DNA of 64,000 nt from Pelomonas sp. Root1237. Its GTDB lineage: Bacteria > Pseudomonadota > Gammaproteobacteria > Burkholderiales > Burkholderiaceae_C. The notes beneath the pieces were generated by a model. The model was given only the letters and a program-made list of their open reading frames with translations. It searched no databases and was not told the origin of the DNA. This document shows, in pieces, positions 2,101 to 11,363 of the stretch. How positions within the stretch are numbered: position 1 is the first letter of the stretch; every line of letters starts with the position of its first letter. Both the position numbers and the translations under genes were made by a program. The DNA lies in assembly GCF_001425055.1 (NCBI RefSeq), contig NZ_LMDK01000016.1, forward strand, positions 1,036,637-1,100,636. The letters run 5' to 3'.

Positions 2101-2877
2101 ATGGCCACCGGTCGCCAACCCCCGCGGCAAGTCCCGCCGCCCGATCGCCGTGAGACTGATCGGCGTGGCAGCTATGCCCGCTTCATTCCTGGCGAGGAAC
2201 TCCAGGGCGCCAAGGCCTGGAACCTCGACAACCTGGGCAACGCCGCACCCTCGCCCTTCGCGCCGATGCGCCCCGGCAACCCGCCGGCCACACCCACCGC
2301 CGCCGCACCGGTAGAGCCGCCGCCCCCGCCCGAACCCAGCGCGCAGGAACTGCTACACGCCGCGCGCCAGAGCGGCTATCAGGACGGCTACCGCGATGGC
2401 ATGGCCGCGCTGGACGCCTTCAAGCAGAGCTTTGCCCAGCAGATGAGCAAGCAGCTCGGCACGCTGGTGACGGGCTTTGATACCGAGATGCGCTCGCTGG
2501 AAGACGAGATGGCCCAGTCCATCGCCCGTATCGCCGTCGAGCTGGCCCGCCAGGTCGTGCGCAGCGAGCTTGAGCAACGCCCCGAGCTGATCGCCCGTGT
2601 GGCCCACGACGCCGTCGAGGCCCTGCAGTTGTCGGCGCGCCACGTGCGCGTGCGTGTCCACCCCGATGACCACCCCCTGGTGCAGGAAGGCGCCGGCAAC
2701 GAGTTGCAGGCCCGCGAGGCGCAGCTCATCCCCGATCCCGAGGTGCCGCGCGGCGGCGTCAAGGTGGATGCCGACATTGCCAGCGTCGACGCGACGATTG
2801 CCACGCGCTGGCAACAGGCCGTCTCGGCCATCGGCCAGCAATCGATCTGGGAAGACCGGCGCACGGAGGACGAATGA
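2101..2877 (+). CDS. fliH: Flagellar export regulator FliH
   Basis: Cytoplasmic stalk protein that binds and restrains the export ATPase FliI; 258 residues from the ATG at 2101. That start is chosen because upstream in-frame codons translate the hairpin region and look non-coding. The N-terminal half is Pro/Ala-rich and disordered. It is followed by a Gly-spaced helix typical of FliH ([18 protein letters not shown]) and a V-ATPase subunit E-like C-terminal part ([21 protein letters not shown]). The last bases overlap the start of fliI by 4, indicating translational coupling. Confidence 0.93.
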
Positions 2878-4301
2878 CTTCGGCGCGCACCGATCGCTGG
2901 CAGCGCTATCTCGCCGACCTTGAGACGCTGGCGGCCAACACCGCGCCGCTGGAATCCCACGGCAAGCTGGTTCGCGTGGCCGGCCTGGTGCTGGAAGCCA
3001 CCGGCATCAAGGTGCCGATGGGCTCGGTCTGCCGCATCCAGATGCCCAGCAGCGGCAACAGCCCGCGCCGCGGCTCGGCGCCAGTGAATGCCGAGGTCGT
3101 CGGCTTCTCGGGGGACCGCGCCTATCTGATGCCCACCGACGAGGTCCAGGGCCTGTCCAGCGGCGCCACCGTCGTGCCGCGCCACCTGCCGCCGCTCGCT
3201 CCCCAACTCGGCCAGCCCTTGCACCCCTGGCGCCGTGGCGAGGATCGCGGCCTGCACCTGCCGATGGGCGACGGCCTGCTCGGCCGCGTCGTCGACCCGC
3301 ATGGCCACCCGCTGGACCGCGGCGGCGAGCTGGCCGACATCCACAACGAACCCATGGTGCGGCGCCCCATCAACGCGATGGACCGCGACCCGGTGCGCAT
3401 CCCGCTGGACACCGGCGTTCGCGCCATCAACGCACTGCTGACCGTCGGCCGGGGCCAGCGCCTCGGGCTGTTCGCCGGCACTGGCGTCGGCAAGTCGGTG
3501 CTGCTGGGCATGATGGCCCGCTACACCCAGGCCGATGTCATCGTCGTCGGCCTGATCGGCGAGCGCGGCCGCGAAGTCAAGGAATTCATCGAGGACATCC
3601 TCGGCATTGAAGGCCGCCAGCGCAGCGTCGTCGTCGCCGCACCCGCCGATTCGCCGCCGCTGATGCGCATGCAGGGCGCGCACTACGCCACGGCGATTGC
3701 GGAACATTTCCGCGATCAGGGCCGCCATGTGCTGCTGCTGATGGATTCGCTGACCCGCTATGCGATGGCCCAGCGCGAGATTGCCCTGGCCATCGGCGAG
3801 CCGCCGGCCACCAAGGGCTACCCGCCGAGCTGCTTCGCCAAGCTGCCGCAGCTGGTGGAGCGCAGCGGCAACGGCCTGCCGGGCGAGGGTTCCATCACCG
3901 CCTTCTACACGGTGCTGACCGAGGGCGACGACCCGCAGGACCCCATCGCCGACGCGGCGCGGGGCATCCTGGACGGCCACATCGTGCTGTCGCGCGACCT
4001 GGCCGAGGCCGGCCACTACCCGGCCATCGACATCGAGCGCTCCATTTCCCGGGTGATGACCAGTGTTGCACCCCAAAACCAGGTCGATTCCGCGCGTCGA
4101 TTCCGCCAGCTTCTGGCGAAATACAACAAGGCCCGCGACCTGATCCAGCTTGGCGCCTATGCCCCGGGCAGCGACCCCGAGCTGGACCTGGCCGTACGCC
4201 TGCATGCCGACATGACGCGGCTGCTGCAGCAGGACATGCACAGCCCGGCACTTCTTCACGCCAGCGTCAGCCAATTGCAGGCCGTGGTCCAAGGCGCCTA
4301 A
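2874..4301 (+). CDS. fliI: Flagellum-specific ATPase FliI
   Basis: ATPase of the flagellar type III export apparatus, related to the F1 beta subunit; 475 residues. The Walker A motif GTGVGKS lies at about residues 202-208, the family signature [12 protein letters not shown] follows, and the Walker B strand is [19 protein letters not shown]. It energises export together with FliH and FliJ, its immediate neighbours. The ATG overlaps the fliH stop as ATGA. The C-terminal helical domain (residues 370 on) is complete, so the protein looks functional. Confidence 0.97.
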
Positions 4302-8886: not shown

Positions 8887-9622
8887 GCCCCTGCTTGGCG
8901 CCACGTTGCTGCTCGCAGCCGGTGCCGCCTTTGCCCAAGCCCAGACGCCGCCGGCCACCGTGCCGCTGCTGATTGGGCAGGGTGCGGGCGGCAGCTACTC
9001 GGTGCCGATCCAGACGCTGCTGTTCTTCACCGCCCTGGGCTTCCTGCCCGCAGTCATCCTGATGATGACGGCCTTCACGCGCATCGCCATCGTGCTGAGC
9101 CTGATGCGCCAGGCGCTGGGCACGCAGGCCGCGCCGCCCAACCAGGTCATCGTCGGCCTGTCGCTCTTCCTGACTTTCTTCGTCATGAGCCCGACGCTGG
9201 ACAAGGTCTACGCCGAGGCCTGGCAGCCCTACAGCGCCGGCACCATCCAGTTCGACGAGGCCTTGAAGCGCGCCGAGGTGCCGATGCGCGGCTTCATGCT
9301 CAAGCAGACGCGCCAGGCCGACGTGGCCCTGTTCTCGCGCCTGGCCAAGCTGGATGCCAGCGTCAAGGCCGAGGACGTGCCCTTCAAGGTGCTGGTGCCG
9401 GCCTTCGTGACCAGCGAGCTGAAGAGCGCCTTCCAGATCGCCTTCCTGATCTTCATCCCCTTCCTCGTCATCGACATGATCGTGGCGAGCGTACTGATGA
9501 GCCTGGGCATGATGATGCTGTCGCCCGTGCTCGTCGCCCTGCCCTTCAAGCTGATGCTGTTCGTCTTGGCGGACGGCTGGAATTTGCTTCTTGGTTCTCT
9601 TGCAGCGAGCTTTGTGACTTAG
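8876..9622 (+). CDS. fliP: Flagellar export gate protein FliP
   Basis: Core channel subunit of the flagellar export gate; 248 residues. The N-terminus is a cleavable signal peptide ending near residue 20 (LLAAGAAFAQA), as is usual for FliP. Four membrane segments follow, with the signatures TAFTRIAIVLSLMRQALGTQ and PFKLMLFVLADGWNLLLGSL. The P-ring motif region FVTSELKSAFQIAFLIFIPF is intact. It overlaps fliO, and fliQ follows after 60 bases. Confidence 0.97.
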   Translation: MRLKPLLGATLLLAAGAAFAQAQTPPATVPLLIGQGAGGSYSVPIQTLLFFTALGFLPAVILMMTAFTRIAIVLSLMRQALGTQAAPPNQVIVGLSLFLTFFVMSPTLDKVYAEAWQPYSAGTIQFDEALKRAEVPMRGFMLKQTRQADVALFSRLAKLDASVKAEDVPFKVLVPAFVTSELKSAFQIAFLIFIPFLVIDMIVASVLMSLGMMMLSPVLVALPFKLMLFVLADGWNLLLGSLAASFVT

Positions 9623-9682
9623 TCAGTTGGGGACAGAGCTGTCGGCGAGTACGCCTCCAGGTCAGTCCCGCAAAGGAAACAG

Positions 9683-9952
9683 ATGGACGCACAACAAGTC
9701 TTCACCTTCGGCCAGCAAGGCCTCTACATGATGATGCTGGTCGCCGCACCAGTGCTCATCGTCGTGCTGCTCGTCGGCGTCGTCGTCAGCGTGATCCAGG
9801 CGGCCACGCAGATCAACGAAGCGACGCTGTCCTTCGTACCCAAGGTCATCGCCACGGTGCTGACGCTGGCCGTTGCGGGGCCGTGGATGATGACGACGCT
9901 GGTGGAGTACATCCAGCGGACGTTGATGACGATCCCGAACGTGGTTGGGTAG
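9683..9952 (+). CDS. fliQ: Flagellar export gate protein FliQ
   Basis: Small export-gate subunit of 89 residues with two membrane helices (MMMLVAAPVLIVVLLVGVVV and TVLTLAVAGPWMMTTLVEYI). The linker AATQINEATLSFVPKVIA is the conserved family signature. It normally sits immediately before fliR, but here a 646-base non-coding stretch with a giant inverted repeat separates them. The coding sequence itself is complete. Confidence 0.97.
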   Translation: MDAQQVFTFGQQGLYMMMLVAAPVLIVVLLVGVVVSVIQAATQINEATLSFVPKVIATVLTLAVAGPWMMTTLVEYIQRTLMTIPNVVG

Positions 9953-9982
9953 GTTGGCGCCGTGAGTGGGCGGCTGGTCAAT

Positions 9983-10543
9983 GCTTCGGGTTGGCGCCAC
10001 GTTGCCGGGAGTCCGTCCCGGCGGCCGGGTAACTTTCTTCTGCGGGGCCAGAAGAAAGTCACCAAAGAAGAGGCCCTGAACCGCACACCAGCACCACATG
10101 TGAGTGGTCAGACGCGAACCGCTGCGCTCTCGCTGCTGTCCCTGTCACCAGCACCATCCATCGCCCCGCCTGCCCGCTTAACGCGCGGCTGCACGCCGGG
10201 CTCACCAGAAAACCAAATACAACGTCGCTCGGGCGACGCGACGGCTAGTTGCGCTCGGCGGCGTCGCCCCAGCGACGCGGTATTCCCTGATAAGCCCGGC
10301 GTGCAGCCGGCGTTAAGCGGCGTGAAGGGGCAATGGATGGCGCTCTCCACAAGGACAGCAGCGAGAGCGCAGCGGGTCGCGTCTGCCCGTAATGCAGGTG
10401 AGTGTTTTCGCGCGACGCTCATGGCGTCGTCGCGATCGTGTGCGGTTCAGCGCCTCTTCTTTGGTGACTTTCTTCTGGCGCCGCAGAAGAAAGTTACCCG
10501 GCCGCCGGGACGGACTCCCGGCAACGTGGCGCCAACCCAAAGC
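9983..10543. repeat. Giant near-palindrome (long inverted repeat) between fliQ and fliR
   Basis: Bases 9983-10088 and 10438-10543 are inverted copies of 106 bp with three mismatches. Inside lie further matched arms: 10109-10141 with 10353-10385 (one mismatch in 33), roughly 10153-10204 with 10290-10337 (imperfect), and 10223-10239 with 10261-10277 (one mismatch in 17). Each outer arm carries its own hairpins (CTTTCTTCTG/CAGAAGAAAG and GCCGGGA/TCCCGGC). No transposase, target duplication or credible protein is visible in the 646-base gap. It looks like two copies of an interspersed repeat in head-to-head orientation; cruciform formation or an RNA hairpin is possible. Confidence 0.9.
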
Positions 10544-10598
10544 ACCGAACGCAGCACGTCCTCAGGCGACAGGCAATAACCGGAGCAACAAACACCAA

Positions 10599-11363
10599 AT
10601 GTTCTCCGTCACCGAAGCCCAACTCCTCGCCTGGTTGAATCCACTTTTGTGGCCCTTCATCCGCACGCTGGCCCTGTTCGCCGGCATGCCCACCTTCAGC
10701 CAGCGCAATGTGCCGCTGCGCCTGCGCGTGGGCCTGGCCCTCTTCATCTCGGTCGCCTCCCAGCCCTCACTGCCGGCGATGCCGGTCACGCCGCTGGACT
10801 CGCTGCCCGCGCTGACGCTGCTGGTCGCCCAGCAGCTGCTGATCGGCCTGTCCATGGGCTTCGCGGTGCGCATCGTCTTCGCGGCGCTGGAGTTCGCCGG
10901 CGAAATCATCGGCCTGCAGATGGGGCTGAACTTCGCCGGCTTCTTCGACCCCAGCACCGGCGCTCAGGGCACCGCCAGCGCACGCTTCTTCGGCAGCATG
11001 GTGGCCTTCCTGTTCATCGCCATCAACGGCCATCTGCTGCTGATCAACGCACTGATCCAGAGCTTCCACGCCTTCCCGGTGGGGGGCGAGCCCTTCGCCT
11101 TCCTGCGCGTGGCCACGCCCCAGCAATGGGGCGCGGAGATCTTCAGCATCGGGCTGTGGATCGCGCTGCCGCTGATCACGATGCTGATGTTCGTCAACCT
11201 CGTGCTCGGCGTCATCTCGCGCGTCGCGCCTCAGATCGGTGTCTTCTCGGTCGGCTTCCCGCTGACCGTCAGCATCGGCCTGATCGGCATGGTGGCCACC
11301 CTGCCGCTGATGCAGACGCCGTTCATGGTGGCGCTGGAGCGTCTGCTGTCAGCATTCAGTTAG
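10599..11363 (+). CDS. fliR: Flagellar export gate protein FliR
   Basis: Export-gate membrane subunit of 254 residues from the ATG at 10599, with a CGGAG at 10581-10585 upstream; upstream in-frame starts translate the inverted repeat. Motifs include LNPLLWPFIRTLALFAGMPTF near the N-terminus, LEFAGEIIGLQMGLNFAGFFDP, and a hydrophobic C-terminal segment (SVGFPLTVSIGLIGMVATLP). flhB, often next, is not here. The stop overlaps by 4 bases the stop of the oppositely oriented ABC permease gene, leaving no room for a terminator between them. Confidence 0.96.
   Translation: MFSVTEAQLLAWLNPLLWPFIRTLALFAGMPTFSQRNVPLRLRVGLALFISVASQPSLPAMPVTPLDSLPALTLLVAQQLLIGLSMGFAVRIVFAALEFAGEIIGLQMGLNFAGFFDPSTGAQGTASARFFGSMVAFLFIAINGHLLLINALIQSFHAFPVGGEPFAFLRVATPQQWGAEIFSIGLWIALPLITMLMFVNLVLGVISRVAPQIGVFSVGFPLTVSIGLIGMVATLPLMQTPFMVALERLLSAFS

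Follow-up and report, generated by a model that had tools for sequence, protein, structure and literature searches.

The closest described system appears, from the sequence comparison, to be the BoxC element of E. coli, which was later rediscovered as the PIT elements and as TM_ECO (PMC4666352). Passages of that paper give its consensus as CCCTCNCCC N3-6 GGGNGAGGG N3 GGGNGAGGG (Holder et al. 2015, PMC4666352) and report a stable fold of the E. coli triplex repeats in vitro, but in cells no support for a stable triplex. The repeat found in the window (the whole stretch of 64,000 nucleotides of Pelomonas sp. Root1237 that was analysed) is alike in part but would not be classed as a member, because it departs from this consensus. 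Common to both is the class II order, in which a pyrimidine, a purine and a mirror-purine segment lie on one strand (here at 631 of 648 mirror positions), as well as the occurrence of inverted pairs on opposite strands with unlike partners, all five E. coli pairs combining type A with type B according to passages of PMC4666352. The same passages describe BoxC as G/C-rich, with 9-nt stems and a 3-nt linker, whereas the repeat studied here is A/T-rich with a 5-nt linker; a BoxC pair covers about 85 bp, whereas 27 pairs here span 423-795 bp; and the hrpB-mrcB pair of BoxC showed by eye no loop-tail complementarity, in contrast to the loop-tail pairing and the predicted second pseudoknot described below. 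In one of the genomes analysed (G538, locus L288), a BoxC-like sequence, CCCCTCGCCCTTTGGGAGAGGGCTAGGGTGAGGG, adjoins an element, some 70-100 bases ahead of the motif.

REP, BIME and REPIN sequences are likewise extragenic palindromes that occur as inverted pairs, as set out in passages of PMC2817692 and PMC3116915. Unlike these and their RAYT, the present repeat is much longer, shows triplex and loop-tail covariation and has no adjacent RAYT (0 of 24 loci). Another parallel is offered by the insertion sequences that target REP, which are likewise transposons specific for a palindromic repeat; the families named in passages of Tobes and Pareja (2006, PMC1525189) are IS3, IS110, IS4, IS256 and IS5. 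In the present case the transposase matches IS481-type models and the insertion site is the edge of a loop.

H-type pseudoknots with a major-groove triple helix are formed by telomerase RNA and preQ1-II. The same topology is predicted here for the pyrimidine strand as in pseudoknots with a major-groove triplex such as the SAM-V riboswitch (passages of PMC6061858), and the loop-to-tail covariation expected of the second helix is likewise seen (268 of 304 pairs), but the case described here is a dispersed multicopy DNA repeat known from sequence alone. A description of the motif was not found among the open papers listed by the literature searches, including passages of PMC2267715 and PMC3733652; one could exist in open papers beyond these or in the subscription literature, which lay outside the scope of this work.

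The near-palindrome between fliQ and fliR

A 561-base near-palindrome with 106-bp outer arms, three mismatches between them and at least three inner arm pairs around a 21-base centre had been described at this site in an earlier note, made from the letters without database searches. Alignment of the two outer arms reproduced the count exactly (mismatches at 9987, 10046 and 10075), and a repeat search extended the outer pair to 116 nt at 94% and found nested inner inverted pairs of 79, 23 and 24 nt, with the innermost arms spaced by 21 nt. By self-reverse BLAST the element is one palindrome (Table 1), and its global self-alignment contains 458 identical positions out of 561. The RNA fold of 9961-10570 was computed at -498 kcal/mol, with z = -28 relative to 20 dinucleotide shuffles. 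Internal hairpins, also mentioned in that note, are present in each outer arm as the segments S1-loop-S2, and the translation KKVTKEEA occurs in the open reading frames of both arms. The mismatches at 10046 and 10075 belong to a single loop-tail pair, which is G-C in the left arm and C-G in the right arm and is thus compensated.

Table 1. Coordinates of the element, its arm segments and the neighbouring genes in the window.
Feature	Position	Strand	Basis or detail
fliQ, upstream neighbour	9683..9952	+	Pfam Bac_export_3 match; stop at 9950-9952
Whole near-palindromic element, head-to-head pair of about 280-bp units	9982..10544	.	Repeat search, self-reverse BLAST, self-alignment
Outer arm, left	9983..10088	+	3/106 mismatches relative to right arm
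Left arm, outer hairpin P0 (GCCGGGA-GTCCG-TCCCGGC)	10004..10022	+	
Left arm, tail CGG, complementary to P0 loop end CCG 10013-10015; second pseudoknot (predicted)	10026..10028	+	
Left arm, main hairpin: S1 10033-10042, loop 10043-10048, S2 10049-10058	10033..10058	+	
Left arm, third segment S3, AAAGAAGA, mirror image of S2 purines	10064..10071	+	
Left arm, L' GCCC, complement of loop 10045-10048	10073..10076	+	
Outer arm, right	10438..10543	-	Inverted copy of left arm
Right arm, pyrimidine-strand sense: loop helix 5' strand GCGC, complementary to 10478-10481	10450..10453	+	
Right arm, pyrimidine third strand TCTTCTTT	10455..10462	+	
Right arm, main hairpin: stem 10468-10477 and 10484-10493, loop 10478-10483	10468..10493	+	
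Right arm, second pseudoknot (predicted): 10498-10500 complementary to 10511-10513; hairpin 10504-10522	10498..10522	+	
fliR, downstream neighbour	10599..11363	+	Pfam Bac_export_1 match

The fliQ-fliR spacer of the window measures 646 bp. Judged by its FliR relatives, the host belongs to Roseateles/Pelomonas, and the closest named one is Pelomonas sp. Root1217 (97%). Comparison with 80 named relatives agrees with the earlier view that the element separates two genes that normally lie close together. Spacers above 130 bp were found in six of the 80. The full palindrome is present in three relatives (L049, L054 and L057), a mini-palindrome occupies a 139-bp spacer (L062), palindrome remnants were recognized by eye in two (L053 and L063) and a different repeat is found in a further two (L050 and L060); the remaining 72 relatives have spacers of -4 to 115 bp and provide the empty-site comparison that had been proposed. 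An assembly artefact, which would have undermined the earlier description, is unlikely, since three other named assemblies show the full palindrome in the same spacer. The different repeat of L050 and L060 is GC-rich and about 170 bp long, as if the spacer were generally tolerant of insertions.

A FliR DNA tree of 53 rows (the window and the loci of 52 of the 80 relatives) places the full, mini- and remnant sites in one nine-row group among empty relatives, although the fork is weak (87/79). The label count on this tree is three changes, which fits one insertion followed by losses or several insertions alike. The simplest reading is that the fli copy is an old insertion that later decayed by internal deletion in some relatives; the flagellar operon would tolerate it, presumably with a neutral or mild effect. 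Empty and filled sites were also compared for a target-site duplication, for which the boundaries are too diverged to make a call.

A dispersed repeat family and an IS481-like transposon at its loop

With the 281-base left half as the query, 30 places were found in the 6.43-Mb genome, and self-reverse BLAST revealed inverted pairs at ten loci (L031-L040), two of which (L038 and L040) are cut by a contig end at an IS481-like element. Smaller derivatives at L044 and L047 retain the outer parts only. The arm occurs in 18 of 20 genomes of the genus, including its own, with 1 to 40 matches each among the matches listed, and two genomes have none. The proposal of an interspersed repeat in many copies, with two units joined head to head, has thus held, and its absence from every related genome, which had been named as an objection, was not observed. 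Terminal inverted repeats, multiple copies and the lack of an internal transposase are shared with MITEs, and the non-autonomous element suggested earlier is likely.

All 27 motif pairs that lie within 900 bases of each other in the loci analysed face the same way, with the purine sense running inward from both ends. Outside the genus, an inverted partner core was detected within 1.5 kb for 18 of 47 motifs, and for 15 of 22 further copies from G131, G681, G770, G538 and G544; these counts are underestimates, since BLAST revealed diverged inverted arms at five of the 29 partnerless loci (L163, L164, L173, L174 and L181) that the core scan had overlooked. The palindromic form is therefore common outside the genus, but not universal. 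Divergently transcribed neighbours flank none of 47 motif rows and none of 19 elements (three of these rows correspond to two own-genome elements among the 19), counts that are approximate because the gene calls came from a GC-frame heuristic that overlooked fliR in L031.

Some insertion sites are shared between genomes. An apparent liv transporter cluster carries a site common to G010, G002, G007 and G009, and a site with an element at an ABC transporter is common to G000 and G008, from which it follows that many copies are old. At L133, L135, L141 and L148, an apparent branched-chain amino-acid transporter cluster of four genomes has two elements, each at the same position throughout; their loop and stem types seem to track the genome and not the site, which suggests homogenisation within genomes.

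Arms that lie far apart were considered as a possible autonomous version. In the limited set that was opened, such pairs proved to contain an IS5-type insertion or to be two separate elements. Locus L132 holds a transposase with DDE_Tnp_1 and DUF772 matches, which we take to be of the IS5 type, and where the paired arms lie about 4.4 kb apart, they belong to two distinct elements of the apparent liv cluster, found at the same places in several genomes. The IS5-type gene of L132 (G002:C1:70500-75700, at 2129-3109) lies within one palindrome, so that a second IS family lands in these repeats. At two further loci (L185 of G424, 768-1265, and L289 of G538, 1245-1799), inverted arms about 1.0-1.2 kb apart surround small genes with a start that by eye resembles a signal peptide; these are possibly cargo. 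Carriage by plasmids or phages was likewise dismissed, as a blastn search with the 561 bp gave no match among 72,556 plasmid and 50,697 phage records; in viral contigs, 0 stretches carried an exact C-type motif and 2 an exact D-type motif.

Many contig ends stop at an element with the ends TGTATAGACCGG, whose transposase matches rve, rve_3 and an IS481 leucine-zipper model. The palindromes themselves had been considered as the cause of contig ends, but the contigs examined stop at this IS481-like element instead. Twelve of its ends were matched in the genome, ten with readable flanks (one lacks a flank and one is preceded by N). All ten readable junctions begin exactly six bases past a stem strand, that is, at the edge of the 6-nt loop; in eight cases the hairpin is of the A type (in one of them the loop contains an N), and in the other two the element adjoins a related stem, CTTCTTTTTG. 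Only one side of each junction is visible, since the contigs end inside the transposon; the full loop is present at both end types, which points to a six-base target duplication equal to the loop. The exposed loop may thus be the target of the IS481-like transposon. The CTTCTTTTTG stem occurs at the start of contig C17 (L219) and the end of contig C22 (L223) of the same genome, and its loop, GTCGCT (AGCGAC from the other side), suggests a further motif subtype.

Covariation in the arm ends and the predicted fold

The arm end consists of the hairpin S1-loop-S2, a linker, the segment S3, which repeats the purine side of S2 in reverse order, and L', the approximately four bases after S3, which are the reverse complement of the 3' part of the hairpin loop. 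The stem consensus is A/T-rich (CTTTYYYYTG/CARRRRAAAG), the linker has 5 nt and loops vary from 3 to 7 nt across copies. Two stem types, TTTCTTCT and TTTTCTCT, occur within the genus, each with its own S3, and six stem types overall, each with a matching third segment.

Sampled genomes, for which class and order names were inferred from the host, were scanned with two patterns. The class pattern, in which part of the hairpin and the AAA of S3 were fixed, matched 15 of 369 genomes. The order pattern fixed only CTTT, TG, CA, AAAG and TNACC, restricted four stem positions per side to Y/R and left the loop, S3 and L' free; it matched 38 of 399 genomes and 21 of 159 genera. Reversed-pattern controls yielded 0 among the genomes listed in both scans. 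Motif copies per sampled genome were taken from the first places listed. As the hairpin matches both strands, the reading with a purine segment after the hairpin was retained and the flank-side reading dropped; the orientation of the motif set was therefore chosen by S3, and the permutations and register shifts reported here were run within that set. Three genomes with a flank-side reading only (G439, G603 and G557) were excluded throughout.

In an initial set of 67 distinct motifs, drawn from 46 genomes, 520 of 536 mirror positions were correct and 230 of 264 loop-tail pairs matched; when the set was collapsed to 40 distinct stem-loop combinations, 144 of 160 pairs were retained, the permutation maximum being 114. 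This set had left out G538, G544, G617, G699 and G760, several copies from G256, G318 and G131, and G248, G059 and G293, the last three with loops of 3-4 nt. A recount restored these rows and added further copies, which raised the number of distinct motifs to 81 and left the picture unchanged, with failures among the four variable mirror positions in 7 of 81 motifs, compared with 6 of 67 before. In register, 631 of 648 mirror positions were correct, versus 316-368 after shifts by 1-2 bases, and all four variable positions were correct in 74 of 81 motifs (permutation mean 20, maximum 35 in 10,000 permutations). Among the loop-tail pairs of the 76 motifs whose loops have 6 nt, 268 of 304 were Watson-Crick, versus 57-100 after shifting (permutation mean 174, maximum 200); all four pairs were intact in 57 of these motifs and at least one was broken in 19. 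Kinship among the sequences inflates such counts, whereas the register shifts retain the same kinship. One motif, in G506, has no third segment.

The same coupling is seen in 66 distinct-context motifs of the genus, where the CGGGGC loop occurs with GCCC and loops ending in CGC with GCGC; one loop, TCTTGC, is an exception. In G681, copies with near-identical flanks alternate between two types across all three segments. A tendency of unlike arm types to pair with each other was considered, and 19 of 28 pairs were unlike; with a permutation mean of 15.6 and 223 of 5,000 permutations as high, this signal is weak.

A second pairing lies outside the main motif. The GC-rich hairpin P0, detected in 49 of 74 contexts, has a loop end complementary to the 3-4 bases between P0 and S1. 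Over the 49 contexts, 127 of 147 pairs matched in register and at most 37 when shifted, and 13 of 23 distinct combinations were exact (permutation mean 2.0, maximum 8 in 10,000 permutations). Matched changes within the genus were recognized by eye, TCCGC occurring with GCGG and TTCGC with GCGA. The scans for this pairing, for neighbour context and for base-stem wobbles required an S3 start of [AC]AA[AG].

These pairings suggest that the arm end would form two tandem H-type pseudoknots, the first with a triple helix. Along the pyrimidine strand, the one opposite KKVTKEEA, the loop-pairing strand comes first, then the pyrimidine third strand, and finally stem, loop and stem; the loop-1 strand would occupy the major groove of the second stem of the first pseudoknot, with T/U.A-T/U and C+.G-C triplets. 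The third-strand relation required for U.A-U and C+.G-C triplets fits the pyrimidine strand, and the same letters also allow a purine-motif reading of the other strand. The short connection of the second pseudoknot presumably suits the pyrimidine strand only. According to passages of PMC4666352, stability comes from G-G-C triplets in the purine motif and from T-A-T triplets in the pyrimidine motif, and the pyrimidine motif is therefore favoured for the A/T-rich stems found here.

Partial conservation is also seen in a 5-bp base stem that adjoins the triplex stem. At one variable pair of it, wobble-type combinations on the pyrimidine strand were counted in 17 of 85 instances (16 of 43 genomes), compared with 0 on the other strand, and plain mismatches in 11 of 85. 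The outermost pair has 51 pyrimidine-strand wobbles, which were left unused because this pair overlaps the second pseudoknot, and the innermost pair has two wobbles on the other strand; elsewhere there is no strand preference (stem 2 versus 1, loop 4 versus 5). The base-stem wobbles appear to favour the pyrimidine strand, but not RNA over DNA. The base stem and the triplex are presumably mutually exclusive, and there would therefore be two states, or another cause for one of the two conservations. Within one molecule, pairing between the two 106-base arms would be expected to be much stronger than any pseudoknot.

Competing explanations for the structured arm ends

The explanation considered probable is that of a non-autonomous dispersed element with a structured recognition end, an assessment that the recount left unchanged. 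In the genus, such an element would typically consist of two units of about 280 bp joined head to head and located mostly outside protein genes, and its arm end would be the recognition module of a putative trans-acting machine that spread the repeat. Counted against it are that no mover was found and that no target-site duplication of the element itself was established at the fli sites compared. A more specific version is speculative and in our view quite unlikely, namely that the repeat represents a widespread class of bacterial mobile element, whose tandem-pseudoknot termini, the first with a telomerase-like triple helix, are the RNA or single-stranded DNA recognition signal of a putative replicating machine. 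Such a machine could, for example, run a SINE-like cycle driven by a reverse transcriptase, and the head-to-head form would be its usual product.

The repeat may also have a host role at mRNA 3' ends. Taken as the main explanation, this would mean a host-beneficial RNA element, in which the pyrimidine strand, transcribed at gene 3' ends or within operons, forms tandem pseudoknots with a function in blocking exonucleases, adjusting termination or binding a protein, dispersal being secondary. This is an unlikely alternative, for which it can be said that the base-stem wobbles fit G.U on the pyrimidine strand with none on the other and the copies avoid divergent intergenic regions. However, G.T wobbles in single-stranded DNA fit equally well, plain mismatches also occur at that pair, wobbles in the stem and loop have no strand preference, and avoidance of promoters is expected of any repeat. 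A read-through transcript of the palindrome would moreover contain both arms, which pair mutually, and 0 to 40 matches per genome of the genus (among the matches listed) would be odd for a core regulator. Nor was an Rfam match obtained: over 9600-10900 only a miRNA model was reported, with 34 bits against a cut-off of 124 bits and located at 10185-10310, outside the motif, and 12 loci gave none at E 0.01. Improbable, too, is a DNA element of the BoxC/PIT kind, in which H-DNA or an intrastrand purine-motif triplex, built from the duplex mirror repeat and the hairpin, stalls replication, copies being kept or lost by DNA instability. The shared class II order, the head-to-head pairing known from BoxC pairs and the deletion derivatives that retain their ends speak for it, but the stems are A/T-rich, whereas purine-motif triplexes are stated in passages of PMC4666352 to gain stability from G-G-C; in addition, H-DNA leaves the two covarying loop-tail pairings unexplained, and by eye the single BoxC pair examined lacked such complementarity.

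The idea of a REPIN/BIME population moved by a RAYT (Y1 transposase) draws on the paired inverted repeats outside genes and on the PF01797 genes of the host, yet a family search combined with a motif scan led to its rejection, and it is regarded as very improbable: the hairpin was beside none of 24 PF01797 loci (three in G000 and 21 in eight of ten other motif-bearing genomes) within up to 1.5 kb per side, and G681 and G318 possess the motif with no PF01797 match. One PF01797 gene (L131, G000:C12) has a palindromic repeat of its own on its 5' side, at 1356-1437, and a translation resembling that of this repeat also occurs in an element of G007 (L148). Finally, it is barely conceivable that the conserved feature is a coding sequence for the KKVTKEEA peptide and not a nucleic-acid structure; the peptide does read through in both arms here, but the loop-tail and P0 pairings covary outside it, loops of 3 to 7 nt shift the frame, and most copies lie outside the genes called by the heuristic. 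KKVTKEEA is probably a by-product of the nucleic-acid structure, reflecting the purine strand, the linker and the mirror third segment; its counterparts in other types are RKVTKREA and similar peptides, and all segments vary together.

The non-autonomous element with a structured end, favoured here, turns a vague interspersed palindrome into a precise structure, in which most bases of an arm end of about 70 nt are given a partner and natural compensatory changes occur in several lineages and, in the window, even from one arm to the other. It supplies the IS481-like transposon with a target defined by structure, and it could account for the spurious KKVTKEEA-like proteins mentioned in the earlier note. 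The third strand and the two covarying loop-tail helices make the use of the fold in the cell, and the strand on which it forms, directly answerable.
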